Positions 17,301 through 32,916 of a stretch of DNA of 39,837 bases are shown in pieces (positions within the stretch are counted from its first letter, which is position 1; each line of letters begins with the position of its first letter). This stretch comes from Candidatus Rokuibacteriota bacterium (GTDB lineage: Bacteria; Methylomirabilota; Methylomirabilia; Rokubacteriales; CSP1-6), in assembly GCA_016179965.1 (NCBI GenBank), contig JACPCF010000018.1, positions 1 to 39,837 of the forward strand, written 5' to 3'. The notes under the pieces are model-generated. The model made no database searches. It had not been told where the DNA came from and saw only the letters and a list, made by a program, of their open reading frames with translations. Both the position numbers and the translations under genes were made by a program.

Positions 17301-18709
17301 TCGAAATTCCACGCGCCTTCCTCCCGCCGGAGGGCCCCCCGCGTGATCAGCCCTTTCAGCGTCTCCTCCACCAAGAGCGGAACGCCCGCGCTGACGTGGA
17401 ACAGTTGCTGGTGAAAGCGGGCCGGGAGAGGATGCCGCAGGAGGTCGGCGGCCATCTCCCCCACCTGGATCGGCGTGAGCCGGGAGAGGCTCACCCGCTC
17501 GAACTGGGGTGAGGCCTGGAAGTACGGCAGGAAGGCGGTGAGGGAGCGGAGCTTCGGCCCCCCCTCGGGCTCGTCGGGGAGGCCGGCCCCAGCCGTCGCG
17601 AACACGAGGATCCGTCCGTCCTCCCGGCTCAGGAGGTGGAGGAACGCTTCGAGGCTCGCCTCATCCGCCCAATCGAGATTCTCAAGGAGCACCAGCAGCG
17701 GGGTCCCTTCGGAGATGAAGCAGAGGAGATCCAGGATTGCGTGGAAGAGCTGGCGCCGGCGCTCCGGCGGGGAGATCGCCTCCGCCGCGCCCTTGCTCGG
17801 CGTGAGGAACGGGAGCACCGAGCTCAGGGCCGCCAGTTTGGGTCCCGCCAGCCGCGCCGTGATCGGAGGGATCAGCTCCGGAGCGCGGTCGAAGTACTCC
17901 TGGATGAGGGGGGCCAGGGCGCTGTACGGGACGGCCCGGTTCTGAGCCAGGCAGCCTCCATGGAGGAAGCGGAGGCCGGCGCTTCTGGCCAGCCCCGGCA
18001 CCTCGGCGAGCAGGCGGCTCTTGCCCAGGCCGTGTTCGCCCTCGATCACGACGAAGCGATTCCGCCCGGAGGGCGCCGCCGCGAGGAGCCGCGTGAACAG
18101 TTCCAGCTCTCGCTCCCGAGCCAGGAGGCGGGGGCGGTGAAGCTGCCGGAGGGCTTCCTTCTCCGTCGGGAGCCGCTCGCCCAGGTCGCGGCTGGCGAGG
18201 TTCTTCCCGCCGCGCTTCGCGTGAGCCAGCGCGCGGCGGACTTTCTCGATCAGGCCGGACGCGGTCTGCGCCTCCTCGGGGAACGTCGCCACGCCCAGGC
18301 TCGCCGTGATCGGAATGCCGCTCGCGGCGTGGGGAACGACAATGGGCTCGGCGGCGACCCGCGCTCGGATCTCGTCGGCGATGGGGCCGGCCGCCTCGCT
18401 GCCGATCCCCTCCAGGAAGACGAAGAACTCGTCGCCCGCGTAGCGGACGGCGTACCCGCCGCGGCGGCGCCCCTCCTGCAGCAGCAGGGCCACCTGGCGG
18501 AGCACCACGTCGCCGGCGAGCCGGCCGTGGGTCTCGTTGACCCGCTTGAAGTCATCGAGGTCAAGCAGGATCACCGACAGCGGGATCTTCTCGGAGGCCA
18601 GCCAGCCGAAGCGCTCCTTCAGGTACTGCGCCATGAACCACCAGTTGTAGAGCTGGGTGAGGCGGTCCAGGAAGATCAGCCGGGCGGGATCGCGCAGGGG
18701 GCTCGTCAT
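14357..18709 (-). CDS. Giant GGDEF, STAND-like ATPase and HEAT-repeat protein (downstream paralogue)
   Basis: The product has 1,450 residues. Residues ~10-170 are a GGDEF domain: DRLTQLYN, LDLDDFKRVNETHG and active-type AGDEF at 91-95, with no RxxD inhibitory site. Residues ~195-620 are a STAND-like AAA ATPase: Walker A GEHGLGKS (224-231), a damaged Walker B (LLENLDWAD, 341-349, with E-N where D-D is usual), PLLVEETLKGLITRG, and the typical HRRETHRKVAQVYE and IAYHFERSDD tail. Residues ~695-800 and ~855-960 are two copies of one module (NMRVFPEGSQL; NLRLYPPENEL). HEAT-like repeats fill ~1050-1450. Gly-rich linkers lie at ~631-670 and ~996-1022. The start is ATG 18709, overlapping the upstream paralogue's stop by four bases; the 1,869-aa track ORF over-extends. 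Function is unknown; nucleotide-linked signalling is inferred. Confidence 0.87.
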   Translation of the reverse strand: MTSPLRDPARLIFLDRLTQLYNWWFMAQYLKERFGWLASEKIPLSVILLDLDDFKRVNETHGRLAGDVVLRQVALLLQEGRRRGGYAVRYAGDEFFVFLEGIGSEAAGPIADEIRARVAAEPIVVPHAASGIPITASLGVATFPEEAQTASGLIEKVRRALAHAKRGGKNLASRDLGERLPTEKEALRQLHRPRLLARERELELFTRLLAAAPSGRNRFVVIEGEHGLGKSRLLAEVPGLARSAGLRFLHGGCLAQNRAVPYSALAPLIQEYFDRAPELIPPITARLAGPKLAALSSVLPFLTPSKGAAEAISPPERRRQLFHAILDLLCFISEGTPLLVLLENLDWADEASLEAFLHLLSREDGRILVFATAGAGLPDEPEGGPKLRSLTAFLPYFQASPQFERVSLSRLTPIQVGEMAADLLRHPLPARFHQQLFHVSAGVPLLVEETLKGLITRGALRREEGAWNFEQVTPEDFPTSGDEAIARRLENLDPETLEVVSEASVIGPDVDLAVLAEVLGQDPGETLDFVERGRRSGVFEATDPVADAGEIRFSNARLREIVHDGVDATHRRETHRKVAQVYERFAGPEPGEALGPIAYHFERSDDTGRASFYREKLQALRDWLFSPADVGEPGSGEGGGGKAAGVGAGTGVGAGPGGGVTGVGGGGEAGTVKVRIAEATQPLDEAALPVAVQFIKTLTLAAKNMRVFPEGSQLVREELASASAALLRLLEQHEAITLAEQRGALLANGKAVEGKALVAHAQDLLRFFRQHGIRSLTFVRGVIESEVQELVRILSGPSLGIPPEIAEWEAELISRGILYVGVFPAIYLATTKQVGGLPAGETVLDDEGMRLSAEVFRSLAGAVDNLRLYPPENELNVSIQERLERQAQVLLDRIPAVTLALAEDSIVINGVRANPKVFGITSPLLHKLLQESGLTSVTLARGVTRGDLEVFLTQLALPGTDDPMSPVALARALEEKGITTIQVGSRFYTAARASLTGGGRPGGPGGGQGGGAGSGGAAVAPGRTRSEEEKLFEQVAQWLDTPAAAPDLREEAIPAAVDSWLGSERKDLAKLLWERLMGGLADPMEGTRQRAASGLTLLLTVANVGTLAWLREMSLEALEKALVNETSPRVFQWEVRAAVEALKLMLRDGNLARAVSLAEALGRGQAGKPDQKKLLPLATAAVEKMAATGVFEPLLTALKGDDPTRREQSRAILAGLGEGALQFIVNVVTQEENAEVRKVAASLLRSLPGAGLRLLVPQLHPPTSAPVARRIVSVLDLVAPELGPDFFFLLAHPDVLVRAEFAGIVSRLPRPAALKFLERALGERDPNVLTGALECVRGLQARELVDSILRLMRRETPVEVLKTACLGLGQLKDERAVDPLVEVLQRRARFLGLVKGFHETVRAAAARALGELGSPEAQEALQTVLKDTSMAVRSTARLALLRLKQGRERR

Positions 18710-21700
18710 TTCTTCGCCTTGGCGTCGGCTTCCTGCTGCAGCCTGAGGAGGGCCAGGCGGGAGGCCGAGCGGACCGTCTTGCTCCGATCCCTGAGCGCCG
18801 CCTGCAGCGCCTCCTTGGCCTCCGGGAACGCCAGCTCGCCGAGGGAGCGGGCCGCGGTCGCGCGGATGCCCTCGGGGAGGCCCTTCACCAGACCGAAGAA
18901 GCGCGGCCGCTGCTCGAGAATCTCGAGGAGCGGGCTGACCGCGCGCTCGTCCTTCAGCCCTCCCAGACAGAGGCAGGCCATTCGCTGAACGTGCTGGCTC
19001 CGGGGATTTTCGAGGAGGCGGACCACGGCGTCCACGAGCTCGCCCCCTCGAAGCCCCCGCACGCATTCCAGGGCGCCCAGCACCACCTCGGACTTTCGCT
19101 GGCCGAGCGCCTGGCCGAGGAACCGCACGGCCTGCTCCCGGGAGAGCCGCGTCAGCGTCCTGGCCATCTCCGCCCGGACTTCCACCTCCGGGTGGCCGAG
19201 GAGGGGCAGGAACTCGGCTCCCAGCGCCGGGACGACGACGTCGAGTACCGCCACGATGCGGGTCAGCCGCTCCGTGGAGGTAGAGCGCTCCAGTTCCCGG
19301 ATCAACGGCCGCACGCTGGCCTCCCCCTGGGCGCGCAGGAGTCCGGCGGCGGCGCGGTAGATCTCCTCGTCCTTGCCTTCGAGGATCACCTGCAGCAGGA
19401 GCGGCACCGCGCCGGGACCCAGCCCGCCGAGGATGGCGCTCCCCTGCTGGCGCCGGGTCGGGTCGGGGTCCTTCAAGGCCTTCAGGACGGGCTCGATCGC
19501 GCCGGCGGCCGCCAGGGAATCCACGAGGCCCCGGACGGCGCTCTGAAACCGCTCGGCCTCGGGCCCCCGGCTCTGCGCCGTCCCGGCCACGGCCTCCGCG
19601 AGATGGGCCGCGCGGGCAAAATCGGCGGCGCTGAGGAGGCGCTTCAGGATCTCGGCCGCGAGCGTCACTTCGCCCTGGAAGGCCTCGAGCTGGGTTTCCT
19701 TCCTCGCGGCGTGGGACAGCGGCTCCAGGATCTGGGCCAGGAGCCACTCGCGGGATTCGTCTTCCGCCCGTCCGAGGGAGCGCGACAGGCCCTGAGCCGC
19801 CTTCCAGCGGAGTTTCCCGTCGGGCTCTGCCAGCGCGCCCGTCATCCGGCCGACCAGCCGCGTTGCCAGATCTTCCCGCCCGAGTCGCCGGAGCGCGCCC
19901 AGGGCCGTGGGGATCTCGTCCTGGATCTGAGGCTCCAGGAAGACCGCCAGGGGCTCCTGGAGCCACAGCGTCGCCTGGCGGATCGTCTGCTCCGCCTGGG
20001 AGACTTCGGGGGCCGGCGCCTCGGGCGGAATCTCTGCGCGCGGGGGCTCGGGTTCAGGGAATTCCGACGTGTCCAGCCGCTCGGCCGCCGCGTACATGCG
20101 GGTGCCGACCTCGATCGTCGTGATCCCGCGCCCTTCGAGCAGGCTCCGCCAGGAGGCCGGGGTCGGCTGCGGTTCCTCCAGCGGCTGGGCCAGCTGCGTC
20201 AGGAACGCGCGAAGCTCCTCCCGGGTGACGCCCCGCCGGATGGTCAGGCTCGTGAGGTCGTTGTCCTGCATGAGGCGCTCCAGGATCTCGATCGTAATCC
20301 CGAACAGCCGGGGGTTCGGCCGGGTGGCGTTGACGACGATGGTGCCCTCCGCCATCCCGACCGTCAGGCTCGGGATGCGCGTGAAGAGCGCCTGGGTTTG
20401 GCGCTGCAGCTGGTCGAGGGTGAGCGTGATCAGCTCGCTCTCGGGCGGGTAGAGCCGGATGTTGTCCACCGAGGCCGCCAGGGCGCGGAGGACGTCGCGC
20501 ACCAGCGCCAGGGTCGGATCGTCGAGGCGGACCTCCTTCTGCTCGCGGCGCCAGACGGCCCTCCCCTCTCCGGCCGCGAGATAGATGACGGGGAAGATGC
20601 GCACGTGGCTGATCTTCTCGGCCTTGAGGCGCTGCTCCCAGAATTCCAGGTCGTGCTGGACGCCGGCGGAGGGCCCGCTCAGGATCTTGAGCATGCCCAT
20701 CACGTCGGTCCGCGTCGTGCCGCGCTCGAAGGTGCAGCGGCGGATCCCGTGCTCCGCGTACACCCGCAGGAGGTCCTGGGCGACCGGGAGGATCCCCTTG
20801 GCCTCGACGGCCTGGCCGTTGATCTGAAGGGCCTGGCTTTCCTCCGCGAAAGTCACGGCCTCGACCCGCTTGAGGAGTTCCAGCAGCGCCCCCGTGGCCG
20901 CGACCACGCCGTCCAGCACGAGCTGGCTCCCCTCGGGGTACACCCGCATGTTCTTCACGGCGACGGTCAGGGCGCGGAGGAACCGCTCCGCCAGCGGCCA
21001 GGACTGCTCGTCCAGCGGCGGCGCCGTCTCGGCGGCCCCGACCTTCAGACTCAGCTCCCGGGCGATCTCCTCCACCGAGAAGAGCTGGCCCGAGAGCTCC
21101 TGGACCCGCTGGCGGTAGAACTTCCCCTTTGCCGCGTCGTCCGAGCGCTCGAAGTGGTACGCCAGCGGCCCCAGCACCTTGTCCACCCGATCCCCCGCCA
21201 GCCGCTCGGCCACCTCGCCCACGGTGCGGTGCGTCTTCCGGCGATTGTCCTGGTCGAGGTTGGAGTACACGATCTGCTGGAAGCACTGGCTCAGGAAGCG
21301 CACCTCGTCCTCGTCCACCAGCGGTCCGGGCTCCTCGAACACCCGGCGCTTCTTCCCCTGATCCACCAATTGCTGCGTCTCCCCGGGATTCTTCCCCAGC
21401 ACGCCCGCCAGCACCGCCACGTCCACGTGGGGGCCCACGACCGCCGCCTTGCCGATCATGGTGTGGATCTCCTGGTCGAGCGCCTCGAGCCCTCCGAGCA
21501 CCGCCGCTTCCAGGGAGGCGGGCACCGTGGCAGGCTCGACGGCGTCGAGGTTCCACATCCCGTCCGTGGTCTTCAGCAGGCCCTTGGTGATGAGTCCCTT
21601 GAGCGTTTCCTCCACGAAGAGTGGGATCCCCTCGCTGGCGTCGTAGAGGCGCTGGAAGAACGCGGGGGACGCGGTGTGACGCTGGAGGATCTCGGTCACC

Positions 21701-22953
21701 ATCTCGGTGACATGGGCGAGGGGAAGCGACCCGAGCCCCACCCTCAGGAAGTTCTGTGACTGGCGGAGGAGCGCGAAGAGACGGGCCAGGGGGAGCGGAC
21801 CCCCCTCCTGCCGGGCCAGGGTCTCGGACTGGGCGGCGGCGTAGACGATCACCTTCCCTTCCTCCCGATCCAGCAGGCGGTAGAAGACCTCGAGGCTCGC
21901 CTCGTCCACGAAGTGGAGATCGTCGAGGAAGAGCAGGAGGGGCGCCTGCTCGGAGAGCTGGCACAGGAGATCTCCCATTCCGTGGAAGAGGAGGCTCCGT
22001 CGGTCCTCCGGAGCCAGGCCCTCCCCCGCCCCATCGGACGGGCCCAGGGCGGGGATGAGCGTCCCGAGCTCCTTCACCGTCTGAGCCGACAGCCGGGTTC
22101 GGACCGTATCCCGCAGCTGCGGCTCCCGGGTCAGGCAATCAGCCAGGATCCGGGTGAGGCTGCTGTAGGGAATGGCGCGGTGGGAGTCCAGGCAACGGCC
22201 GAAGAAGCACCGAAGCCGGCGTCCGGCGGCGCGGCGCATCACTTCGAGCAGGAGGCGGGTCTTTCCCAGCCCCCGGTTCGCCTCCACGAGGAGGAAGCGG
22301 TTCTTCCGCTCGGCCCCCTCGGCGAGCGGTCGCTCCAGCTCCGCCAGGGCGTCGTCCCGGCCGACCAGGCGGGGACACGGAAACCGCTTGAGGATCTCCA
22401 CCTCCGGCGGCAGCGCCCAGCCGCCCGCCCGGCTCACGCAGTTCTTTCCGGCGCGCTTGGAGCGGTAGAGGGCCTGGTCGGCGGCCTCGATGAGCTCGGA
22501 GGGCGACGGGGCGTCCTCGGGATAGGCGGCGACGCCGAGGCTGATCCGGACCGGGATTCCGTCCGGCGCCTTCTCCGTGGTGAACCGCTCGGTGTTAACC
22601 CGTTCGCGGATTCCCTCCGCCACCTTCACGCCTTCGGCGGCGTCGGCCCCCTCGAGGAAGGCGAAGAACTCGTCTCCGGCGAAGCGGATGGCGTACGCGT
22701 TGGCGGGCAGCGAGGCGCGGATCAGGTCGGCGAGGCGCTTGAGGATGAGGTCGCCGTCGAGATGCCCGTAGGTGTCGTTGACCTGCTTGAAGCCGTCCAG
22801 GTCCAGCATGATGACGGACAGCGGGGTGCGGTCGCGCGCGAGCTGGTCCAGGCGCTCCCGCAGATACTGCCGCATGAACCGCCGGTTGTAGAGCCCGGTC
22901 AGCTCATCGACGAATATGAGCCGTGAGGCCTCGCGAATCGCCGAGAGATCCAT
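18706..22953 (-). CDS. Giant GGDEF, STAND-like ATPase and HEAT-repeat protein (upstream paralogue)
   Basis: This 1,415-residue paralogue is collinear with the next gene. The GGDEF domain (~10-172) has DELTGLYNRRFM, LDLDGFKQVNDTYGHLDGD and AGDEF at 92-96, without an RxxD I-site. In the ATPase, Walker A is EANRGLGKT (first Gly replaced by Ala225), while Walker B is intact (LLLFLDDLHFVDEASLEVF, Asp344-Asp345). The ATPase tail HRTVGEVAERL and LAYHFERSDDA follows. Two sensor-like modules begin NMRVYPEGSQL (~669) and NIRLYPPESEL (~831), and HEAT-like repeats run from ~1000 to the end. I start at ATG 22953, where similarity to the paralogue begins; the track's 41 extra residues overlap a candidate sigma-54 promoter. 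Which nucleotide it binds or makes is not known. Confidence 0.87.
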   Translation of the reverse strand: MDLSAIREASRLIFVDELTGLYNRRFMRQYLRERLDQLARDRTPLSVIMLDLDGFKQVNDTYGHLDGDLILKRLADLIRASLPANAYAIRFAGDEFFAFLEGADAAEGVKVAEGIRERVNTERFTTEKAPDGIPVRISLGVAAYPEDAPSPSELIEAADQALYRSKRAGKNCVSRAGGWALPPEVEILKRFPCPRLVGRDDALAELERPLAEGAERKNRFLLVEANRGLGKTRLLLEVMRRAAGRRLRCFFGRCLDSHRAIPYSSLTRILADCLTREPQLRDTVRTRLSAQTVKELGTLIPALGPSDGAGEGLAPEDRRSLLFHGMGDLLCQLSEQAPLLLFLDDLHFVDEASLEVFYRLLDREEGKVIVYAAAQSETLARQEGGPLPLARLFALLRQSQNFLRVGLGSLPLAHVTEMVTEILQRHTASPAFFQRLYDASEGIPLFVEETLKGLITKGLLKTTDGMWNLDAVEPATVPASLEAAVLGGLEALDQEIHTMIGKAAVVGPHVDVAVLAGVLGKNPGETQQLVDQGKKRRVFEEPGPLVDEDEVRFLSQCFQQIVYSNLDQDNRRKTHRTVGEVAERLAGDRVDKVLGPLAYHFERSDDAAKGKFYRQRVQELSGQLFSVEEIARELSLKVGAAETAPPLDEQSWPLAERFLRALTVAVKNMRVYPEGSQLVLDGVVAATGALLELLKRVEAVTFAEESQALQINGQAVEAKGILPVAQDLLRVYAEHGIRRCTFERGTTRTDVMGMLKILSGPSAGVQHDLEFWEQRLKAEKISHVRIFPVIYLAAGEGRAVWRREQKEVRLDDPTLALVRDVLRALAASVDNIRLYPPESELITLTLDQLQRQTQALFTRIPSLTVGMAEGTIVVNATRPNPRLFGITIEILERLMQDNDLTSLTIRRGVTREELRAFLTQLAQPLEEPQPTPASWRSLLEGRGITTIEVGTRMYAAAERLDTSEFPEPEPPRAEIPPEAPAPEVSQAEQTIRQATLWLQEPLAVFLEPQIQDEIPTALGALRRLGREDLATRLVGRMTGALAEPDGKLRWKAAQGLSRSLGRAEDESREWLLAQILEPLSHAARKETQLEAFQGEVTLAAEILKRLLSAADFARAAHLAEAVAGTAQSRGPEAERFQSAVRGLVDSLAAAGAIEPVLKALKDPDPTRRQQGSAILGGLGPGAVPLLLQVILEGKDEEIYRAAAGLLRAQGEASVRPLIRELERSTSTERLTRIVAVLDVVVPALGAEFLPLLGHPEVEVRAEMARTLTRLSREQAVRFLGQALGQRKSEVVLGALECVRGLRGGELVDAVVRLLENPRSQHVQRMACLCLGGLKDERAVSPLLEILEQRPRFFGLVKGLPEGIRATAARSLGELAFPEAKEALQAALRDRSKTVRSASRLALLRLQQEADAKAKK

Positions 22954-22969
22954 CGTGTGTTGAAAATCC

Positions 22970-23020
22970 CTCGATGCACCAACCGTGCCAGAATGGCCGG
23001 GCTGCCGGCCGTGCATCAAG
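22970..23020. repeat. Interrupted inverted repeat overlapping the sigma-54-like site
   Basis: CTCGATGCAC (22970-22979) and GTGCATCAAG (23011-23020) are inverted copies with one mismatch, and a GGCCG/CGGCC stem lies between them. The left arm covers the -12 region of the candidate promoter. It could be an operator or an RNA hairpin. The remaining part of this 163-base gap holds AGGAGG/CCTCCT (about 23038-23057), a possible weak terminator for the preceding MetE-like gene. Confidence 0.4.
22974..22991 (-). promoter_or_regulatory. Sigma-54-like promoter before the GGDEF-ATPase pair
   Basis: The minus strand reads CTGGCACGGTTGGTGCAT. This matches the -24/-12 pattern TGGCACG-N4-TTGCW with one mismatch, and GG and GC are separated by exactly 10 bases as required. 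The predicted start is about 12 bases before the ATG at 22953. No enhancer-binding activator gene is present in the window. Confidence 0.45.
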
Positions 23021-23116
23021 GGGCTCTGAGAACCCCAGGAGGGGTATCTAACCTCCTGCCGCCCCTTGGGCGTCACACCTATTGTGCATTTTTGGCAGCT
23101 GATGGCCCAAGATGTC

Positions 23117-24118
23117 CTACGCGAGTTCGGTTCGGAGCTCGCGGACCGCTGTCAGCATGGTCTCGAGCTTTCTACGGCTCTCCTCCACGGTTCGGGTCTT
23201 CAGCCCGCAGTCCGGGTCCACCCACACGCGCTCCGGCGTGAGGACGCGGACGCCGCGCATGACCCGTGCCTTGATCTCGGTCGGCGTTTCGATCCGGTGA
23301 TTGTGGACATCCAGGACGCCGAGGGAGAGATCCTTCGTGAAGGGATCCTTCTCGAAGATCTTAAGCAGGTCGAGCGCGCTGTTCGAGATGGCCAGGTCGA
23401 GGTTGTCCACGGGGAGCTCCAGCATGTCCGGGTAGATCGTCTCGAAGGCGCCGTAGCAGGCGTGGGTGATGAAGTAGGCGGGCAGCCCGTCCACGGTGAG
23501 GTGCATAGCCTCGATGGCGAAGGATAGCTCCTCCTGTCGGACCGAGATGGCCGGCTCGTCGATCTGGATGATCCGAGCACCTGCCTCGATCAGGGCCTCG
23601 GCTTCCTTGCGGAGCTCCCCGGCCAGGGCCAGGCACGCCGACTTCCGGTCCCGGTAGTGGTCGTTGAACGACCAGTCCATGACCGTGTAGGGGCCGGTGA
23701 GCATTCCTTTCACGGGCTTCTTGGTGAGGCTCTGAGTCCACCGCCACCACTGGACGGTCATGGGGCCGGGCCACTTCACCTCCCCCACGATCGCCGGCTT
23801 GTGGTAGTAGCGGTTGCCGTACGACCGGACCAGGCCACCCGTCTGGAACCCCCCCATGAGCTCGGCAAAATAAGCCACCATGTCGCCCCGGTACTGCTCG
23901 CCGTCCACGAGGACGTCGAGCCCGATCTCCTCCTGGGTGCGGATCCAGAACTCCGTCGCTCGCTTCTCCAGCGTCTCCAGCTCGGCCCGCGTGATCTGGT
24001 TCCGCGTGTACTTCGTCCGGGCCTCGGCGAGCTCCGGGGTCTTCGGGAAGCTCCCCACCGTGCTGGTTGGGAGCAGCGGCAGCTCCACGCCGAGGCGCTT
24101 CAGCTTCTCGCGGCTCAT
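23117..24118 (-). CDS. MetE-like methyltransferase 1 (core methionine synthase fold)
   Basis: The 333-residue product matches the catalytic C-terminal half of cobalamin-independent methionine synthase: LPTSTVGSFPKTPEL, LDVLVDGEQYRGDM, KGMLTGPYTVMDWSF, IQIDEPAI, FITHACYGAF and WVDPDCGLKTRTVEE. The zinc ligands His219, Cys221 and Cys304 are visible. The residue aligned by eye with E. coli Glu665 is Ala243 (DNLDLAISNSALDLL). The MetE N-terminal half is absent, so any methyl donor may be a corrinoid protein or another folate-independent source, as reported for other short MetE proteins. The start is ATG 24118 after GAGGA; the track's extra 22 residues come from an intergenic repeat. It is paired with a second MetE-like gene upstream. 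Confidence 0.85.
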   Translation of the reverse strand: MSREKLKRLGVELPLLPTSTVGSFPKTPELAEARTKYTRNQITRAELETLEKRATEFWIRTQEEIGLDVLVDGEQYRGDMVAYFAELMGGFQTGGLVRSYGNRYYHKPAIVGEVKWPGPMTVQWWRWTQSLTKKPVKGMLTGPYTVMDWSFNDHYRDRKSACLALAGELRKEAEALIEAGARIIQIDEPAISVRQEELSFAIEAMHLTVDGLPAYFITHACYGAFETIYPDMLELPVDNLDLAISNSALDLLKIFEKDPFTKDLSLGVLDVHNHRIETPTEIKARVMRGVRVLTPERVWVDPDCGLKTRTVEESRRKLETMLTAVRELRTELA

Positions 24119-24125
24119 GCTAATC

Positions 24126-24201
24126 CTCGGAGGGGGGGCTCCGCCCCCCTTCCGATGCCTCCCCCCGTGGGTTGCGCGGGCCAAGCCCGCGCTCGAACAG
24201 G
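24126..24201 (-). repeat. Two-hairpin intergenic repeat, copy A
   Basis: On the minus strand this carries TGTTCGAGCGCGGGC, a first hairpin (GCGCGGGC with GCCCGCGC, 24174-24192), the spacer GGGGGGAGGCATCGGAA, and a second hairpin GGGGGGCGGAGCCCCCC. It ends beside the ribosome-binding site of MetE-like gene 1. It is closely similar to copy B and partly to copy C. Confidence 0.75.
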
Positions 24202-24236
24202 CGCGAGGTATGGCCGTTGCGTTGACATGGGGTGGC

Positions 24237-25223
24237 TCATGATCGTCCTCCGAGGTAAGCGTCCCTCAAGCGTTTCAGGGTCTCCAGCTTGAGACGGGCG
24301 CGCTCGCGCGGGAGGAACTCGAGCCCGCAGGACGGCATGAGATACGTCGGCCCCGTCTTGAGCGCGGGGAGGATCGCGTCGAGGACGGGGAACACGCTCT
24401 CCCGCGTTTCCAGCTTCGTGTTCCGGGCGTCGATCAGGCCGAGAGCCAGCGGCTTGGCCGAGCCGAGATCGGCGATCAGGGCCGGGAGCTTCGGGCTGTA
24501 GGTGAAGTCGAGGCCGAGCGCGTCCACGGGGAGGGCCTGGAGGTCCCGGTAGAGCGGCGCGACGTCTCCGAAGGGGGTGTGGAGGAGGAGCCGCGCCGCC
24601 CCGCGCTCACGCCCCACCACCGCCAGGGCCGCCTCGAGCACGTTCAGGTTCTCGGGGTGACGGACGATCGCCGGCTCATCGAGCTGGATCAGCTGCGCCC
24701 CGGCGCGGCTCAACTCCCCGACCTCGGCCGCGAGCACCTCGGCGTAGGCCAGCGCCAGCTCATGAACGGAGCGGTAGCCGGCTTCCACGATCGAGCCCCG
24801 AGCGAGCGTGTAGGGCCCGGTGAGCACGGGTTTGACGGGCCGTGACGAGACCGAGCGGGCGAACTCGTACTCCGGGAGAAGAATGGGCCCCCGGCGTCGG
24901 AGGCGACCCTTCACCACCGGCTGGCGAAAGTAGAAGTTGGTGTCGAAGAGGCGAAGGAGGCCGTTGATCTCCACTCCCTCCACCCCCCGCGCGAAATGCG
25001 AGTAGGGATCGTACCAGCGGATCAGCCCGTCGGTGACCACCTCGATGCCCGCCTCGATCTGCTCCCGGATCACCCCGGCGACCACCTCGTCCTCGACCTT
25101 CCTGAGCTCCTCAGCGCTGATGTCTCCCCGTTCGCGCTGGGCGTAGGCGCGCCGGTGTCGTTGGAGGTCGGGCACGTCGCCGATCCGGGGGTAACTCCCC
25201 GCGGTGCTCAGAATCAGCTGCAT
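24237..25223 (-). CDS. MetE-like methyltransferase 2
   Basis: The 328-residue product has the same fold signature as the next gene: LSTAGSYPRIGDVPDL, EVVTDGLIRWYDPYSHFA, VKPVLTGPYTLARGS, IQLDEPAIVRHPENL and MPSCGLEFLPRERARLK. Relative to MetE zinc ligands, His215 and Cys299 are present, Asp239 stands where Glu is usual, and the second ligand is lost (HTPFGD has Pro217 where Cys is expected). It therefore lacks a different ligand from its partner. It may be a methionine synthase-like subunit, a methyl-transfer partner or an enzyme with another substrate. It starts at ATG 25223 after GGAGAG, 10 bases past the DUF2203 stop. Confidence 0.82.
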   Translation of the reverse strand: MQLILSTAGSYPRIGDVPDLQRHRRAYAQRERGDISAEELRKVEDEVVAGVIREQIEAGIEVVTDGLIRWYDPYSHFARGVEGVEINGLLRLFDTNFYFRQPVVKGRLRRRGPILLPEYEFARSVSSRPVKPVLTGPYTLARGSIVEAGYRSVHELALAYAEVLAAEVGELSRAGAQLIQLDEPAIVRHPENLNVLEAALAVVGRERGAARLLLHTPFGDVAPLYRDLQALPVDALGLDFTYSPKLPALIADLGSAKPLALGLIDARNTKLETRESVFPVLDAILPALKTGPTYLMPSCGLEFLPRERARLKLETLKRLRDAYLGGRS

Positions 25224-25233
25224 TCGGCTCTCC

Positions 25234-25632
25234 TCAGAGCGGTTTACGGTTACTATACCCTTCGTCGAGGCCGTGCCAGAAGCCGATGCGGGTCTCGCCG
25301 AGCCGCCAGCAGAGGTTGACCTCCCGATCGTCCATCAGGTGGGGAAAGTCCACCAGTCCCAGCGCCAAGTCCTTGACCGCCCCGCCCAGGTTCATGATGG
25401 CCGCGATCGCGTCCTGGATGTCCGGCGTCAGTTCCTCCACCCGCTGCGTGCGGCCGCGCCAGGCGTCGCGGTCGAGGATCCCTCCCCCCGACACCATGAT
25501 CCGCCGCTGCTCCTCGCGCAGCTCCCCGCGGAGACGGAGGACCTCAGCGTGCCGATCCAGCAAGGGCCCCAGGATCTCCGTGAGCCGGGGGATCAGGGGG
25601 TTCACCTCGCCCGGGGTGAAATACTTGGTCAC
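25234..25632 (-). CDS. DUF2203 family protein
   Basis: The 132-residue protein begins TKYFTPGEVNPLIPRLTEIL, the N-terminal signature of DUF2203. A long amphipathic helical region follows (LLDRHAEVLRLRGELREEQRR), and it ends with GLVDFPHLMDDREVNLCWRLGETRIGFWHGLDEGY, also typical. It is probably soluble and helical. The function of the family is unknown. It overlaps lutC by four bases at its start and lies 10 bases before a MetE-like gene, so it links the Lut block to the MetE-like pair in one transcript. Confidence 0.87.
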   Translation of the reverse strand: MTKYFTPGEVNPLIPRLTEILGPLLDRHAEVLRLRGELREEQRRIMVSGGGILDRDAWRGRTQRVEELTPDIQDAIAAIMNLGGAVKDLALGLVDFPHLMDDREVNLCWRLGETRIGFWHGLDEGYSNRKPL

Positions 25633-26357
25633 CGCGCCTCCACGAAGATGGCGTGGACCTCCTTGGGCCCGTGGACGCCGCGGGTCAACGTCAGCTCGAT
25701 GTCGGCCGTGCGGCTCGGGCCCGTGATGAAGCTGACGACGCTCCCGCTCATGGACCGCGCCGCGTCCAGGTGAAGGGCTTCGAGCATGATCCCCACCTGC
25801 TCCAGCGTCTCCAGTAATCGGTCCTTACCGAAGATGGCGACGTGGGTGTCAGGCAGCAGCGAGGTTGAGTGGGGCCGCCCCGGGCCGGAAAGGAGGATCA
25901 ACGTGCCCGTCTCGGCCAGCGCGAAGTCCGCGCCCGTGACGCCGATGGGAGCCCGGGCGGCTGCCTCGCGGTACCGACCCCGCGCGTCGTCCCGGCCGTC
26001 GGCCGGCGCCGCGACGATGGAGAGCCCCTGGGACTCCAGGCTCCCGCGAAGATCCAGGCCCAGCTCGGCGGACGCCCAGGTGATCAGCTCGTGGGCGTCC
26101 TTTTCCCGGGCGAGGTCCCGGATCACGCCGGCCACCTCCTCGAGGCCGGCGGCGCGGTGGAAGAGGCCGTTGACCCGCTCGAACTCCTGCCTGAAGCGCT
26201 CGAGCGCCTCCGGCCAGCGCTCGGCCATCTGCCGCCTCACGGCCGCCCGAGCCTCCGCGGGCCGCGGGGGGCGCTCCGCGGCGGAGGCCGGGAACAGGCC
26301 CGGCGTCCGGCGAACCTCCCGCCGGATGCGTTCCAGGAACTCGGCGCGCGTCGCCAT
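25629..26357 (-). CDS. lutC: L-lactate utilisation protein LutC family
   Basis: The 242-residue product (LUD domain) has MATRAEFLERIRREVRR, a central IGVTGADFALAETGTLILLSGPGRPHSTSLLPDTHVAIFGKDRLLETL and an end SFITGPSRTADIELTLTRGVHGPKEVHAIFV. These are the conserved LutC blocks. LutC works with LutA and LutB in the membrane-linked oxidation of L-lactate to pyruvate. The start is ATG 26357, two bases after the lutB stop. The 398-aa track ORF extends through lutB in a different frame and is not used. Confidence 0.93.
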   Translation of the reverse strand: MATRAEFLERIRREVRRTPGLFPASAAERPPRPAEARAAVRRQMAERWPEALERFRQEFERVNGLFHRAAGLEEVAGVIRDLAREKDAHELITWASAELGLDLRGSLESQGLSIVAAPADGRDDARGRYREAAARAPIGVTGADFALAETGTLILLSGPGRPHSTSLLPDTHVAIFGKDRLLETLEQVGIMLEALHLDAARSMSGSVVSFITGPSRTADIELTLTRGVHGPKEVHAIFVEAR

Positions 26358-26359
26358 GG

Positions 26360-27766
26360 CTAGCGGAGGCCCTTCCAGCGCTGGGTGAAGGTTTGCGTGG
26401 CTACGGGAGGGAGGTCGCGCGTCCTCGTCCACTTGGCGAAGACGAGCGGGAGGCTCCGGAGCCGCCCGTTCCTGACAAACGGCCGCTGGGCCACTCGACC
26501 GAGGGCGACGGAGAGCCTGAAGAGCGCCGGCGAGGTCAGCAGGCGCCTGAAGGTCTTGAAGACCAGCCGCTCCGCCAGCGGAGCGATCCGCTCCCGGTCG
26601 AGGCGGTGGCGCAGCTCGATCAGCATCCGCGGGATGTCGATGCGGACCGGGCAGACCTCGTGGCAGGCTCCGCAGAGGGAGGAGGCGTGGGCCAGCTCCT
26701 TCACCGCCCGATCGCCTTTCAGCATGGCCGTCAGGAGGATGCCGATCGGCCCGGGATAGGTGTGGCCGTAGGCGTGGCCGCCGATCTGCCGGTAGACGGG
26801 GCAGACGTTCAGGCAGGCGCCGCACCTCAAGCAGTAGAGGGCTTCCCGGAGTTCTCCGGCGATCTGACGGGAGCGCCCGTTGTCCATGAGGATCAGGTGG
26901 AACTCCTCCGGGCCTTCCACCTCGCGGGCCTGGCGGGGGCCCCGCACGAGCGTCGTGTACACTGAAAGCTTCTGCCCCGTCGCGCTCCGCGCCAGGATGG
27001 CCAGGAAGACCATCAGATCCGTCATGGACGGGATGACCTTCTCGATCCCCATGACGGCCACGTGGATCCTCGGCAGCGAGGTCACCATGCGGCCGTTCCC
27101 CTCGTTGGTCACGAGCACGATCGTCCCGGTGTCCGCCACGGCGAAATTGGCGCCGGTGATCCCCATGTCGGCCTGGAGGAACTTCTGGCGCAGCTCCTTC
27201 CGGGCGACCGCCGTGAGCACCTCAGGATCGGCCGGGAGGCGCTGGCCCACCTCTCTGGAGAAGAGGTCCGCCACCTGCCCCTTGGTCTTGTGGATGGCCG
27301 GGGCGATGATGTGGGACGGCTTCTCATGGGCGAGCTGGATGATGTACTCGCCCAGGTCCGTCTCCACCGGGACCACGCCTGCCTGCTCCAGCGCGTCGTT
27401 CAGCTCGATCTCCTCGGTCGCCATGGACTTGGACTTGACCGCCATCTTCACGCGCCGGTCCCGGCAGAGCCTCAGGATGGTCTCCCGCGCTTCATCGCCG
27501 GTGGTCGCCCAGTGAACATGCCCGCCCAGCCGCTCGACGTTATCCGCCAGCCTCTCGAGGTAGTCGTCCAGGCGCTGGAGCGTCGCTTCCTTGATGGCGC
27601 GCGCCCGGTCGCGCAGTGCCTCGCCCTGGGGGAAGCCGGCGAAGGAGTCCTTCCGGAGGCCGATGAACTTGGTCGTGGCGATGGTCAGCGCTTCCTGCAG
27701 GAACGTGTCCCGGAGCGCCACGGCGGCGCGCTCGGCGAAGGGCTTGGTCGAGGCCTGGTTGCTCAC
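26360..27766 (-). CDS. lutB: L-lactate utilisation iron-sulfur protein LutB family
   Basis: The 468-residue product has an LUD-type N-terminal part with KMAVKSKSMATEEIELNDAL, THAT-like block GITGANFAVADTGTIVLVTNEGNGRM, and two 4Fe-4S motifs: CLRCGACLNVCPVY (Cys312, 315, 318, 322) and SSLCGACHEVCPV (Cys365, 368, 372). It ends in a helical tail. By family knowledge it accepts electrons from lactate oxidation alongside LutA and LutC. The start is GTG 27766, four bases after the lutA stop. Length is normal for LutB/LldF. Confidence 0.95.
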   Translation of the reverse strand: MSNQASTKPFAERAAVALRDTFLQEALTIATTKFIGLRKDSFAGFPQGEALRDRARAIKEATLQRLDDYLERLADNVERLGGHVHWATTGDEARETILRLCRDRRVKMAVKSKSMATEEIELNDALEQAGVVPVETDLGEYIIQLAHEKPSHIIAPAIHKTKGQVADLFSREVGQRLPADPEVLTAVARKELRQKFLQADMGITGANFAVADTGTIVLVTNEGNGRMVTSLPRIHVAVMGIEKVIPSMTDLMVFLAILARSATGQKLSVYTTLVRGPRQAREVEGPEEFHLILMDNGRSRQIAGELREALYCLRCGACLNVCPVYRQIGGHAYGHTYPGPIGILLTAMLKGDRAVKELAHASSLCGACHEVCPVRIDIPRMLIELRHRLDRERIAPLAERLVFKTFRRLLTSPALFRLSVALGRVAQRPFVRNGRLRSLPLVFAKWTRTRDLPPVATQTFTQRWKGLR

Positions 27767-27770
27767 GAGT

Positions 27771-28577
27771 CTAGGCCGCGCGAGTTCGACCGCCGGCTTT
27801 GCCGGCGGAAGCCTCGGGGGGAGGTGTCGGAAGGGGGGCGGAGCCCCCCTCCGAGTAGAGGAGCTGGGCGAGGTGGAGCGCCCTCACGGGCGACCCCTTG
27901 CGGGAGAGGCCCCCGCTCATCTGCATCAGGCACCCCGCGTCGCACGCCACCACGCACCCGGCGCCCGTCTTCTCGATGTTGGCGATCTTCTTCCCGAGGA
28001 TGGACGTGGAGACCTCCGGGAGCCGCACGGAGAACGAGCCGCCGAAGCCGCAGCACTCATCGGCGCCCGGCAGCTCCACCAGTTCGACGCCCTCCAGGTT
28101 GCTCAGAAGGGTCCGCGACGACTGAGACTCTCCCAGCCCCCGGAGGAGGTGGCAGGAATCGTGGTAGGTCACCCGGCCCCTGAAAGCAGTCTTCACGTGG
28201 GTGACGCCGAGCACCTTGACCAGAAACTGCGAGAGCTCGTGGGTCCGATCGGCCAGGGCCTCGGCGTCCTTGCCGAGCGCGGGGTCGTCACGGAGGAGGC
28301 CGGGGTACTCCTTCTTGATCATCCACGCGCACGACCCGGAGGGCACCACGACGTGTTCGGAAGCGGAGAAGATCGGGACCACGTGGCGGGCCACCCGCGC
28401 CGCCTCGTCCTGATAGCCGGAATTGAACAGCGGGAGCCCGCAGCACGTTTGGCTCGGGGGAAAGTCCACCGTCACGCCGAGCCCGCGGAGCAGCGTCACC
28501 ATGGCCACCCCGACCTCGGGATAGAAAAGGTCCACCAGGCAGGTGACCAAAAGGGAGGCGCGGATCGGATGGGTCAT
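27771..28577 (-). CDS. lutA: L-lactate utilisation protein LutA family, with repeat-encoded C-terminal tail
   Basis: The 268-residue product has two CCG (cysteine-rich) domains: LVTCLVDLFYPEVG with SQTCCGLPLFNSGY, and TYHDSCHLLRGLGESQ with DECCGFGGSFSVRLPEVS, followed by CDAGCLMQMSGGL. These bind Fe-S clusters as in LutA, GlcF and HdrB. The last ~26 residues (SEGGSAPLPTPPPEASAGKA…) are translated from an intergenic two-hairpin repeat on the other strand (copy B). They are probably a recent, non-functional extension after HLAQLLY. It acts with LutB and LutC in lactate oxidation. It could alternatively serve another hydroxyacid, given the neighbouring Glc genes. Confidence 0.93.
   Translation of the reverse strand: MTHPIRASLLVTCLVDLFYPEVGVAMVTLLRGLGVTVDFPPSQTCCGLPLFNSGYQDEAARVARHVVPIFSASEHVVVPSGSCAWMIKKEYPGLLRDDPALGKDAEALADRTHELSQFLVKVLGVTHVKTAFRGRVTYHDSCHLLRGLGESQSSRTLLSNLEGVELVELPGADECCGFGGSFSVRLPEVSTSILGKKIANIEKTGAGCVVACDAGCLMQMSGGLSRKGSPVRALHLAQLLYSEGGSAPLPTPPPEASAGKAGGRTRAA
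27780..27855 (+). repeat. Two-hairpin intergenic repeat, copy B (inside lutA 3' end)
   Basis: The plus strand holds GAGTTCGACCGCCGGC, hairpin 1 (CGCCGGC, TTT, GCCGGCG), GGGGGGAGGTGTCGGAA, then hairpin 2 GGGGGGCGGAGCCCCCC and TCCGAG. From GGGGGGAGG onward it is nearly identical to copy A. Hairpin 1 differs by paired changes that keep the stem. It lies antisense within the final codons of lutA. Confidence 0.75.
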
Positions 28578-28589
28578 CGTCCTCGGCGT

Positions 28590-28910
28590 CTAATGTTTTG
28601 GCGGCGGGGCCACCAGCACCAGGATCAGCAGCGGATCGGGGCCCACGTTCTCCAGCCCGTGCTCCACCCCGGCCGGCGCGACGAGCGCCTCCCCTTCCTT
28701 CAGAGTTTCCTCCCTTCCCGCGAGTGAGAACCGGCCCGCGCCCTTCAGCACGTAGTATACCTTGTCCTGCGCGTCGTGGATGTGTGGTTTCTGGGCCTGG
28801 CCCGGGGCGACGCAGTAGAGGTCGAGCTGGAAGCGCTCGGTTCCCGTCAGCGCGATCTTCGCCAGCTTGTCGGGCTGCAACTTCACCTGGTCGAAGACCT
28901 TGATCTTCAC
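28590..28910 (-). CDS. Small cupin-domain protein
   Basis: The 106-residue single cupin has the metal-binding pattern QKPHIHDAQDKVYYVLKGAGRFSLAG, then GEALVAPAGVEHGLENVG. The two His of PHIH, a distal acidic residue and the His of EHG are likely ligands. Start is GTG 28910, overlapping the glcF stop (GTGA); the track ATG at 29018 gives a Pro/Arg-rich extension that lies within glcF. Small cupins can be isomerases, dioxygenases or sensors. Here its place between glcF and lutA suggests a role in hydroxyacid metabolism or its sensing, which is an inference. Confidence 0.88.
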   Translation of the reverse strand: MKIKVFDQVKLQPDKLAKIALTGTERFQLDLYCVAPGQAQKPHIHDAQDKVYYVLKGAGRFSLAGREETLKEGEALVAPAGVEHGLENVGPDPLLILVLVAPPPKH

Positions 28911-30181
28911 CCGTCGCGCGCCCTCTCGGGGAGCGCCCGTCCCAGGAGCTCCACGGGGTGGAGCACCTCGACCGCGAGGCCCCGCTCGCGGCAGCCCCGG
29001 GCGATCTGGAGGAGACAACCGGGGTTTCCGGTGGCCAGGACGCCGGCGCCCGTGGCGGCGATGCGCTCCAGCTTGAGCGCGAGGAGCCGGTCGGCCATCT
29101 CCGGCTCGAGGAGGTTATACACGCCGGCGCTCCCGCAGCAGACGTCGCTGTCGGCCAGCTCGACGAGCTTCACCCCCGGGATCGCCGCGAGGAGCCGTCG
29201 CGGCTCCCGCCGCACCTTTTGGCCGTGAGCGAGGTGGCAGGGGTCGTGGTACGTCACGGTGAGGTCGAGGCGCTGGAGGGGGAGGTCGGCGTCCGCGAGC
29301 AATTCCGACACGTCCCTGACCTTTGAGGAGAAGACTTCCGCATCTCGGTTGTCCCCCAGCCAGTGGCCGTACTCGCGCATGGCCGAGCCGCATCCGGCCG
29401 CGTTGGTCACGACCCAATCGACGGCGCGTCCGAAATGGGTAAGGAGGCGTACGGCGAGAGTCCGCGCCTCGTCGATTTGGCCGGCGTGGAGGTGGAGGGC
29501 GCCACAGCACCCCTGGTCGCGCGGGATCAGCACGTCGTATCCGGCCCGCGTCAAAAGGCGAGCCGTCTCGGCGTTCACCCGGGGAAAGAGGAGGCGCTGG
29601 ACGCACCCGAGCAGGAGGCCCACGGTGCCCCGCTTGCGCCCCCGGGCCGGCACGATCTCAGGCAGGGGGGCGGCGGCGCCCGGCGGAGACGGGGGGAGCA
29701 GCGCCTCCATGGCTCTGAGGCGGGCGAACGGGGCGAGGAGTCGACCGGCGCTCACCAGCCGCTGGAGTCCGGAGCGCTGGTAGAGGCGCGCCGCCCCCAC
29801 GGCGAGGGCCAGGCGCCTCGGGTGGGGGAGGAGGCTCAGCAGCAGGGCCGACGTCAGCCGCTCGGAGAGCGGGCGCGCTCCTCGCCGCTCGATCTGGCCG
29901 CGCGTGGCCTCCAGGAGCCGGCCGAACGGCACGCCCGAGGGGCAGGCGGTCTCGCACGCCCGGCAGCCCAGGCAGAGGTCCAGGTGATGGATGAAGGTCG
30001 GAGTCAGAGCGAGGCGCCCTTCCGCGGCCGCGCGCATGAGGTAGACGCGGCCCCGTGGCGAGTCCATCTCCTCTCCCAGCAGCCGGTAGGTCGGGCACTG
30101 AGGCAGACAGATGCCGCAGTGGACGCAGGCGCGAAGCCCGTCCGTGTCGGGAGGGTCCATGAGGTCGAAGGCGCCGGGCAT
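28907..30181 (-). CDS. glcF: Glycolate oxidase iron-sulfur subunit GlcF
   Basis: The 424-residue product has two N-terminal 4Fe-4S motifs, CVHCGICLPQCPTY (Cys19, 22, 25, 29) and CLGCRACETACPSGV (Cys70, 73, 76, 80). Two CCG domains follow, DQGCCGALHLHAG and DSDVCCGSAGVYNLLEPEMA. This is the full GlcF layout and length. It passes electrons from the GlcD/GlcE flavin subunits towards the respiratory chain during oxidation of glycolate to glyoxylate. It begins one base after the glcE stop and overlaps the cupin gene by four bases, so the four genes form one unit. Confidence 0.95.
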   Translation of the reverse strand: MPGAFDLMDPPDTDGLRACVHCGICLPQCPTYRLLGEEMDSPRGRVYLMRAAAEGRLALTPTFIHHLDLCLGCRACETACPSGVPFGRLLEATRGQIERRGARPLSERLTSALLLSLLPHPRRLALAVGAARLYQRSGLQRLVSAGRLLAPFARLRAMEALLPPSPPGAAAPLPEIVPARGRKRGTVGLLLGCVQRLLFPRVNAETARLLTRAGYDVLIPRDQGCCGALHLHAGQIDEARTLAVRLLTHFGRAVDWVVTNAAGCGSAMREYGHWLGDNRDAEVFSSKVRDVSELLADADLPLQRLDLTVTYHDPCHLAHGQKVRREPRRLLAAIPGVKLVELADSDVCCGSAGVYNLLEPEMADRLLALKLERIAATGAGVLATGNPGCLLQIARGCRERGLAVEVLHPVELLGRALPERARDG

Positions 30182-30182
30182 G

Positions 30183-31469
30183 CTAGATCCGCTCCACGAA
30201 GCGTCCGGGGTTCAAGACCCCCAGCGGGTCGAACTCGGCCTTCAGCCGTTTCATGATCCGAAGCGCCCCCGGCTCCACGGGCCCCCAGACGTCCAGCCGC
30301 TCCTTGACCGGGAGCGGCGCGCGCTCCACCACGACGCTCCCGCCGATGGGGGCGACGCGCTCCCTCAGGGGCGCGATGACCTTGGCTTCCCACTCGGCCC
30401 CGCGGAGGGCTCCCTTCAAGGCGACGTGGAGCGCGCCGTTCCCGGCCTCGCCGACGATTTCAGCGGGGAGCCCGAGGCTGGCCCCGAGCCGCTGGATCTC
30501 CCCGCACAGGGCCGCGACGTCCGACGGCAGCGCGCTGATCTTCAGCAGGACGGGGGCATCCGCCGGGAGCGCCGGCGGCCTGGACCAGAAGTCCGGCGCG
30601 GCCGTTGCCGCCTCGACGCCCTCGCGTCGCGCGAGGGCCGCCAGGCTTTCCCCTTGAGCCCTCACCGCATCGGGAACGCTCCCGAAGGAGACGACCACCG
30701 CTGCCTTCCCCCCGCCGCTCAGGATCTCGAGGCGGTTCGGCTGGAGGCAGGAATCGAGAATCGCCGCCAGGAGGCCGGCCGCGCTCTCGGCGGCGGGGAA
30801 GCTGACGACCCATGTGGCCTCCCCCTCCGGGAGAGGATGGAGCCGGAGCGTCGCCTCCACGAGGACGGCGAGCGTTCCCAGGGAGCCGACCATGAGCTTC
30901 GGGACGTCGTAGCCGGTGACCGACTTGACAACTCGCGCTCCGCCCCACGTCACCGTCCCATCGGCCTGGACGAAGCGGACGCCCAGGAGGAGGTCCCGGG
31001 GAGTCCCGTAGCGGAACCTGAGCGGACCGCTCCCGTTCGTCGCCAGCACGCCTCCCAGAGTCCGGGACGGCCCTCCGAGCGGGTCGAGGGGGAGGAACTG
31101 GCCATGCGCGCCGAGCCGCGCCTGGACTTGTCCCAGCGAGATCCCGCACTGCACCGTCGCGGTCAGATCGGCGGGCTCGTAATCCACGACCGCCGCCAGG
31201 CCCGAGAGGTCCAGGACGCCGTCCAGGCGCTGGGGCGGATTGCCGAGCCCGAGGGCGCTGCCGCTCCCGCGCGGCGCGACGGCGAGGCGCTCTTCGGTCG
31301 CGAGCCTGAGCAGGGGGCTCACGTCCTCCACGCGCGCGGGACGCGCGATCCAGGCCGGAACGCGCCCGTCCACAGCGCAGGCGGCCAGCCGGGCCGGATC
31401 GGTTACCAGGCGATCCGCGCCGGCGATGGCGGCCAGGGCTTCGGTCAGCGCCCGCGCCGAGACCGCCAC
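30183..31469 (-). CDS. glcE: Glycolate oxidase FAD-binding subunit GlcE
   Basis: The 428-residue product has the FAD-binding type 4 pattern VAPRGSGSALGLGNPPQ, GGVLATNGSGPLRFRYGTPRDLLLG and VVKSVTGYDVPKLMVGSLGTLAVL. It ends LKAEFDPLGVLNPGRFVERI, the usual end of GlcE. It is shorter and less conserved than GlcD, as expected. I place the start at GTG 31469, one base after the glcD stop, because the track's 22 extra residues are out-of-frame glcD sequence. It acts with GlcD and GlcF. Confidence 0.92.
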   Translation of the reverse strand: MAVSARALTEALAAIAGADRLVTDPARLAACAVDGRVPAWIARPARVEDVSPLLRLATEERLAVAPRGSGSALGLGNPPQRLDGVLDLSGLAAVVDYEPADLTATVQCGISLGQVQARLGAHGQFLPLDPLGGPSRTLGGVLATNGSGPLRFRYGTPRDLLLGVRFVQADGTVTWGGARVVKSVTGYDVPKLMVGSLGTLAVLVEATLRLHPLPEGEATWVVSFPAAESAAGLLAAILDSCLQPNRLEILSGGGKAAVVVSFGSVPDAVRAQGESLAALARREGVEAATAAPDFWSRPPALPADAPVLLKISALPSDVAALCGEIQRLGASLGLPAEIVGEAGNGALHVALKGALRGAEWEAKVIAPLRERVAPIGGSVVVERAPLPVKERLDVWGPVEPGALRIMKRLKAEFDPLGVLNPGRFVERI

Positions 31470-31470
31470 G

Positions 31471-32916
31471 CTACACCCATGCGCCTTCGGGAAGCGCCAT
31501 TTTCCCTCCGGGCCGGACCGCTTCCCCACAGGCATGGGACGGCAGCAACTTTCCCGGGTTCATGATGCCTTTGGGGTCGAACACGCGGCGGAGCCGAGCC
31601 ATGAACTCCAGGTCCGACGCCGCATACTGGAGGGACAGGCTCTTCGGTTTGTCCAGCCCGACCCCGTGCTCGCCCGTCACGCTCCCTCCCAGCGCGAGAC
31701 AGGCGCGTAGCACCTGTTCGTTGGCCTCGATGGCGCGCGCCACCTGGTCGGGCTGGCGGTCATCGAAGCAAATGAGCGGGTGCAGGTTGCCATCGCCGGC
31801 GTGGAAGACGTTGGCGATCAGGACCTGATGTTGCGCGGCTATGGCCTGGACCTCGCGCATGATCTGGGGAAGCTTCGAGCGGGGCACGACCGCGTCCTGG
31901 AGCACCCAGTTCGGCGCGAGCCGGCCGATGGCGCCGGCCGCCTCCTTCCGCCCCTTCCAGAGGAGCGCCCGCTCCGCCTCGTCGCGGGCGACCCGGATGT
32001 CGAGAGGGCGGTGCGCCCGGCAGAGCTCGGTCACGCGGAGGGCCTGGGCCTCGATCTCGGCGCGGGGCCCGTCCAGCTCGATCAGGAGCACCGCGCCGGC
32101 TCCCTTGGGATAGCCGGCGCCGATGCCGGCCTCGATGGCCCGGATGATCGTTTCGTCCAGGAGCTCCAGGGCGGCCGGAATGATGCCGGCGGCGATGATG
32201 CCCGAGACCGTTTCGGACGCGTCGTCGAGCGATGCGAAGGCCGCGAGGGCGGTCTTGACGGCTTCCGGCGCGTGCAGGAGGCGCACGGTCACCCCCGTCA
32301 CGATCCCGAGGGTCCCCTCCGAGCCCACCGCGATCCCCGTCAGGTCGTACCCCGGCCGGTCCTGGACCTTCCCGCCGAGGCGGACGACCTCCCCGGCCCC
32401 GGTTACGACCTCGAGGCCCAGGACGTGGTTGACCGTAATCCCGTACTTGAGGCAGTGGGGGCCGCCGGCGTTGGTGGAGGCGTTGCCCCCGATGGAGGAC
32501 ACCATCTGGCTGGAGGGATCAGGCGCGAAGAAGAAGCCCTGGTCCTTCACGGCATTGGTGAGCCAGAGGTTGATGAGGCCCGGCTCGACGGTCGCGCAGC
32601 GGTTCGGAAGATCAACCTCCAGGATGCGATTCATCCGGGTCGTGGAGATCATGACGCCGCCGTGGGGCGCCATGGCCCCGCCGATGACCCCGGTGCCGGA
32701 TCCCCTGGGAACCACGGGGACGCCCTCCCGGAGGCACAGGCGGACCAGCGCGGCCACCTGCTCGGTCGAGGTCGGGAGGCAGACGGCGTCGGGTGCGCCC
32801 TTGTAAAAGGTGTGCATGTCGCACTCGTAGGTGAGCCGCCCCTCGGGGGTCGCGACGACTCCCTCGGGCCCGACGATCTGCTCCAGTTCTCGCAGAAACT
32901 GCCGCGTCAGTGGCAT
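31471..32916 (-). CDS. glcD: Glycolate oxidase subunit GlcD (FAD-linked oxidase)
   Basis: The 481-residue flavoprotein has VPRGSGTGVIGGAMAPHGG, PSSQMVSSIGGNASTNAGG, a typical substrate-site FHAGDGNLHPLI, and SVTGEHGVGLDKPKSLS followed by FDPKGIMNPGKLLP. It oxidises glycolate or a similar 2-hydroxyacid with FAD and hands electrons to GlcE and GlcF. Related FAD-linked oxidases use D-lactate, so substrate is uncertain. Start is ATG 32916, beginning MPLTRQFLRELEQIVG; no strong ribosome-binding site is seen, and the track's 25 extra residues come from the intergenic repeat region. Confidence 0.93.
   Translation of the reverse strand: MPLTRQFLRELEQIVGPEGVVATPEGRLTYECDMHTFYKGAPDAVCLPTSTEQVAALVRLCLREGVPVVPRGSGTGVIGGAMAPHGGVMISTTRMNRILEVDLPNRCATVEPGLINLWLTNAVKDQGFFFAPDPSSQMVSSIGGNASTNAGGPHCLKYGITVNHVLGLEVVTGAGEVVRLGGKVQDRPGYDLTGIAVGSEGTLGIVTGVTVRLLHAPEAVKTALAAFASLDDASETVSGIIAAGIIPAALELLDETIIRAIEAGIGAGYPKGAGAVLLIELDGPRAEIEAQALRVTELCRAHRPLDIRVARDEAERALLWKGRKEAAGAIGRLAPNWVLQDAVVPRSKLPQIMREVQAIAAQHQVLIANVFHAGDGNLHPLICFDDRQPDQVARAIEANEQVLRACLALGGSVTGEHGVGLDKPKSLSLQYAASDLEFMARLRRVFDPKGIMNPGKLLPSHACGEAVRPGGKMALPEGAWV

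Follow-up and report, generated by a model that had tools for sequence, protein, structure and literature searches.

A predicted split MetE of Rokubacteria with alanine at the position of the glutamate zinc ligand

Why would a bacterium carry two adjoining MetE-like genes, each of which seems to have lost a different ligand of the catalytic zinc? The question is raised by a 39,837-nucleotide stretch of DNA (hereafter, the window) from a Candidatus Rokuibacteriota bacterium of the phylum Methylomirabilota (contig JACPCF010000018.1), in which a first-pass annotation, made from the letters of the DNA, noted such a pair and placed it outside the known MetE families. Both open reading frames are confirmed at the positions first read, on the minus strand, with the gene for copy 2 (24237-25223; 328 aa, ATG start) upstream of that for copy 1 (23117-24118; 333 aa, ATG start). 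The longest frame of copy 1 (23117-24184) opens with a TTG at 24184 that finds no support in relatives. These begin with an MSR or MGR codon, so the ATG at 24118 is the most likely start of copy 1. Numbered in this way, His219, Cys221, Ala243 and Cys304 of copy 1, as well as His215, Pro217, Asp239 and Cys299 of copy 2, are all exactly as first read and fall on the columns of the Escherichia coli MetE ligands H641, C643, E665 and C726, which we verified in the sequence of that protein.

The key to the pair is the identity of copy 2. This protein matches the Pfam profile Meth_synt_1 (PF08267) with 102.9 bits and Meth_synt_2 (PF01717) with 99.4 bits and thus has both the order of scores and the length (up to 400 aa) by which the N component of split MetE has been defined (Price 2021). 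The margin is small, and the order is reversed in some relatives; therefore, we built a tree of the N- and C-type proteins of 20 diverse genomes, the window pair, 3 paralogues from the genome of the window, and the N and C halves of 7 one-chain MetE proteins. The N-type proteins and the MetE N-halves lie on one side of a branch with support of 100/99.6, and all C-type proteins, the MetE C-halves and the paralogues lie on the opposite side, so that each of the two components falls with one half of MetE. Two motifs of copy 2, WYD and FDTN, show little or no variation across the N-type family and correspond to WYD and FNTN in the N-half of E. coli MetE. At the four ligand positions, the E. coli N-half has Thr, Tyr, Asp and Cys, and the equivalents in the N-half of Thermotoga maritima MetE are Phe230, Tyr232, Asp253 and the retained Cys309 (PMC539065). 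Given that both N-halves carry Asp and Cys at these places, there is nothing unusual about Asp239 (codon 24507-24509, minus strand) and Cys299 (24327-24329, minus strand) in copy 2: both are typical of an N-barrel. The segment His215-Thr-Pro217 (24573-24581, minus strand) occupies the place of (Y/A)-T-Y in most relatives and of TTY in the E. coli N-half; Tyr (27), Ala (22) and His (11) are the most frequent residues at the His215 position across 77 N-type sequences, and His215 of copy 2 is a local variant. The AlphaFold2 model of the protein has a pLDDT of 95. As judged from these comparisons, copy 2 is the N-terminal half of MetE encoded by its own gene, not a damaged catalytic copy, and the first-pass statement that neither protein has such a half does not hold. 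Its description of a pair in which each copy lacks a different ligand is correct for copy 1, where Ala replaces Glu665, but misleading for copy 2, and we rejected the candidate reading of the latter as a further catalytic barrel that lost a ligand on the strength of the tree grouping, the ligand positions and the motifs.

Copy 1 is the catalytic half. It matches PF01717 (Meth_synt_2) with 280.5 bits, groups with the MetE C-halves, and yields an AlphaFold2 model (pLDDT 92) with a TM score of 0.93 to T. maritima MetE (1xpg), to which it is 40% identical in the structural alignment. By alignment to E. coli MetE, His219 (codon 23462-23464, minus strand), Cys221 (23456-23458, minus strand) and Cys304 (23207-23209, minus strand) occupy the zinc ligand positions His641, Cys643 and Cys726, and Ala243 (23390-23392, minus strand) stands in the place of the zinc ligand Glu665. 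Hence, instead of the MetE-type set of His, Cys, Glu (or Asp) and Cys, copy 1 has His, Cys, Ala and Cys. The homocysteine-binding residues of the MetE-type barrel, Ser433, Glu484 and Asp599, are all present (S, E, D), as are DMV, SYGxR and the pterin-stacking Trp. In T. maritima MetE, the pterin is gripped by Glu583 (PMC539065); the family members that we inspected do not keep this Glu at the aligned position, and because of this gap the methyl donor can only be inferred.

Since copy 2 corresponds to the N-half and copy 1 to the catalytic half, the pair is a two-subunit MetE. On the evidence of the tree, it is a split MetE and so belongs to a known kind of enzyme, contrary to its first placement outside the MetE and short-MetE families, and the catalytic subunit lacking the Glu appears to be what is new. 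Split MetE has been reported primarily from archaea, and the two Pyrococcus furiosus subunits assemble into a complex (Price 2021, PMC7857596). The window shares with the P. furiosus proteins PF1268/PF1269 (PMC7857596) a short N-type and a C-type protein encoded side by side, and differs from the archaeal systems in the Ala that replaces the Glu ligand, in its bacterial host from the Methylomirabilota, and in relatives that span Acidobacteriota, Omnitrophota, Zixibacteria and others. With the one-chain MetE of E. coli and T. maritima it has in common both halves, the homocysteine residues, DMV, the Trp and the fold; unlike these enzymes, it consists of two genes, with no long linker, a shorter loop after IDEPA and Ala for Glu665. 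Copy 1 scores 322.6 bits against the one-chain MetE family (TIGR01371; cut-off 929.95), matching only its C half. The folate-independent synthases MesA, MesB, MesC and MesD have a catalytic barrel of the same superfamily but no N-type partner and a different set of zinc ligands, so that the earlier observation that the ligands of copy 1 depart from those of both MetE and MesA-D stands. In contrast to MesC, with His for Cys643 and an archaeal host, copy 1 has Cys at this position and a bacterial host, and unlike MesD, which combines a PRK09121-like protein with MesX, it scores 142.4 bits against PRK09121 (cut-off 392) and is accompanied by no PF08908 match, although for this profile the control was silent too. 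Against NF003317 (PRK04326), it scores 380.5 bits, with a cut-off of 406 that some family members exceed, and against NF002119 (PRK00957), 172.1 bits, with a cut-off of 258. Betaine-homocysteine methyltransferase (BHMT) resembles copy 1 in having three protein zinc ligands and a hydrophobic residue at the Glu place (PMC539065); its ligands, however, are three Cys, and it belongs to another family with another methyl donor.

A single scan of 84,980 genomes recovered 385 related stretches, of which we examined the best 80; these come from Methylomirabilota/Rokubacteria, Acidobacteriota, Hadarchaeota, Omnitrophota, Zixibacteria, Nitrospinota, Planctomycetota and other phyla. Of these best 80, 72 have an N-type gene at this locus as well, nearly always directly upstream, and the two genes adjoin, as in split MetE, with their order conserved, in about 22 Methylomirabilota genomes, so that the pairing noted in the first pass exceeds chance. 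Around the best 80 relatives, no conserved methionine genes stood out, and the shared neighbours appeared unrelated to methionine; a search of viral contigs yielded no relatives. In Calescibacterium and its relatives, a single clade (L162, L164, L165, L173), the catalytic subunit has no adjoining N subunit, and at one further locus (L110, G036:C56), the N-subunit gene is split into two overlapping frames, possibly through an assembly error.

The Ala itself has a narrow distribution. Among 84 readable catalytic subunits, that of the window included, the ligands are HCEC in 70, HCAC in 13 and HCDC in one. In a tree computed with the Ala column omitted, the 13 Ala-bearing proteins form one clade within Methylomirabilota/Rokubacteria (support 97/81), and the sister group, from the same phylum, retains Glu; a single change thus accounts for all 13. 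The homocysteine-binding Ser, Glu and Asp and the His, Cys and Cys ligands are conserved in every one of the 13. The only changes linked to the clade are at residues 261, 264 and 265 of the long frame (240, 243 and 244 from the ATG), at the same strand end, and a search for an acidic residue that might compensate for the loss in this clade alone found none. With dN/dS of 0.06-0.15 for the C subunit and 0.13-0.23 for the N subunit, the pair is under purifying selection, and copy 1 is not a decaying gene. A Meth_synt_2 paralogue from a MetH-bearing genome (L195, G055:C135:12299-13324) likewise has Ala at the Glu665 position.

Does the pair take the place of another methionine synthase? Among the 95 genomes of the phylum, 24 contain the pair (in 2 of these, just a fragment at the end of a contig), and none encodes a full-length MetE. 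Full-length MetH is missing from 23 of the 24: 1 genome has both, 23 only the pair, 58 only MetH and 13 neither (Fisher p 7e-12, kinship ignored), so that the pair and MetH nearly exclude each other. MetH is absent from pair genomes of both the Glu and the Ala type, and a switch between MetH and the pair occurs in at least the families f1 and f5. Neither MetH nor the pair was found in G049, G059 and family f7. The genome of the window (G000) contains MTHFR, fused to an S-methyltransferase (L072, G000:C79); in another Ala-type genome (G025), such a fusion directly follows the pair. In two genomes, the Ala-type pair is directly preceded by an S-methyltransferase gene (L080 in G058; L081 in G057, with two in-frame stops in the match); in a third (L079, G054), such a gene is found about 1.3 kb upstream.

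We consider it probable that the pair is a working split MetE of two chains, with a three-ligand His-Cys-Cys zinc site from which the Glu was lost once, to Ala. We infer that the two proteins form a complex, bind zinc and are active. In this scheme, the upstream gene would encode the N-type barrel, and the catalytic barrel, which holds zinc and homocysteine, would come from the downstream gene, the two barrels most likely facing each other as in one-chain MetE, where the active site lies between the barrels (PMC539065), and the methyl group would most likely pass from 5-methyltetrahydrofolate to homocysteine. The zinc would be held by His219, Cys221 and Cys304, without the Glu that serves as the fourth ligand at rest. 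In crystals of MetE, this Glu is bound at rest and leaves the zinc when homocysteine arrives from the other side (PMC539065), and for this reason the Ala site should still activate homocysteine. The zinc may be set from the start on the substrate side, as in BHMT, in which a leucine at the Glu place makes zinc inversion impossible (PMC539065). Several points count against this reading, namely, the other candidate homocysteine methyltransferases in the genome (three intact Meth_synt_2 paralogues, one of them MesD-like, and S-methyltransferases with a corrinoid protein), the absence of Glu583 from the aligned place, the neglect of kinship in the Fisher p for the pair and MetH, and the view of Price et al. 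(PMC7857596), who judged the loss of Glu665, replaced by Gly in MesC of MSBL-1, to be incompatible with zinc binding. The distribution of the Ala type argues against such incompatibility, although it is no proof of activity.

As an alternative, the Ala-type pair might descend from split MetE but no longer make methionine, having turned to another thiol or lost catalysis, with an S-methyltransferase/corrinoid system or the MesD-like protein acting instead. Such a loss of function seems to us unlikely, if far from negligible: the genome of the window does encode three Meth_synt_2 paralogues with intact HCEC ligands, one of which (L003, G000:C26:18036-19010) belongs to the MesD family (PRK09121, 580 bits; 3RPD, 487 bits), together with the S-methyltransferase/MTHFR fusion and an S-methyltransferase adjoining an MtgC-like corrinoid protein (L088, G000:C12), and multi-part MetH-like systems are known in other bacteria (PMC12478193, PMC12366255). 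However, Ala-type pairs replace MetH in two separate families, and their homocysteine-binding residues are all conserved. The corrinoid set of G000 is without a methylfolate partner, because the sole pterin-binding protein found in this genome resembles dihydropteroate synthase by its motifs, and G058 shows no trace of a corrinoid part of MetH. MesX (PF08908) gave zero matches in the phylum and beside L003, a weak absence given that the positive control was also silent.

Much less probable still is a folate-independent core synthase, in which the catalytic subunit would draw the methyl group from a corrinoid protein, with the N subunit as a docking partner. The missing pterin-gripping Glu583 speaks for it, but DMV, SYGxR and the pterin-stacking Trp persist, the tree places the N subunit with the N-halves of MetE, and those pair genomes of f5 and f8 that lack MetH have no corrinoid part of MetH and, in most cases, do have MTHFR. 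The heteromer anticipated in the first-pass annotation is itself the likely form, in view of the P. furiosus complex and the two-barrel active site of MetE, whereas a zinc site common to both copies, to which each contributes the ligand missing in the other, finds no support, and we give it hardly any credence. Copy 1 indeed lacks Glu665, and an Asp stands at this position in copy 2; yet the N-halves of MetE and the partners of Glu-type subunits have the Asp equally, and Cys299 as well, His215 is missing in 5 of the 13 Ala-type partners, and the corresponding N-barrel site in MetE structures is remodelled and without zinc (PMC539065). A site shared in trans was rejected on these grounds.

Returning to the split MetE with a three-ligand site, we see roughly even chances that a whole bacterial clade runs MetE chemistry on a carboxylate-free His-Cys-Cys site as its only 5-methylfolate-dependent methionine synthase. 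If so, the fourth zinc ligand of MetE, the role of which is an old mechanistic question, and the accompanying inversion of the zinc would be dispensable, and the Ala lineage and its close Glu-keeping sister lineage would make a natural matched pair for testing that ligand. Because the scan finds split MetE across many bacterial phyla, annotations that take the N subunit for a second core synthase, or the genomes for MetE-less, would be wrong.

The surroundings of the pair in the window can be described briefly. A purine-rich segment directly 5' of the N-subunit ATG (25231-25238, minus strand) reads as a possible ribosome-binding site. The DUF2203 gene (25234-25632, minus strand) ends 10 bases before the N subunit, and the two are probably on one transcript. 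A search of the window for Rfam riboswitches, such as SAM and cobalamin, found none. Directly upstream of the pair, on the same strand, 25234-31535 encodes DUF2203, LUD domain, LutB-like, LutA-like, cupin, GlcF-like and FAD-oxidase proteins, and at 14357-18700 and 18706-23076 lie tandem proteins of about 1450 aa each, both with GGDEF, AAA_16 and HEAT repeats.
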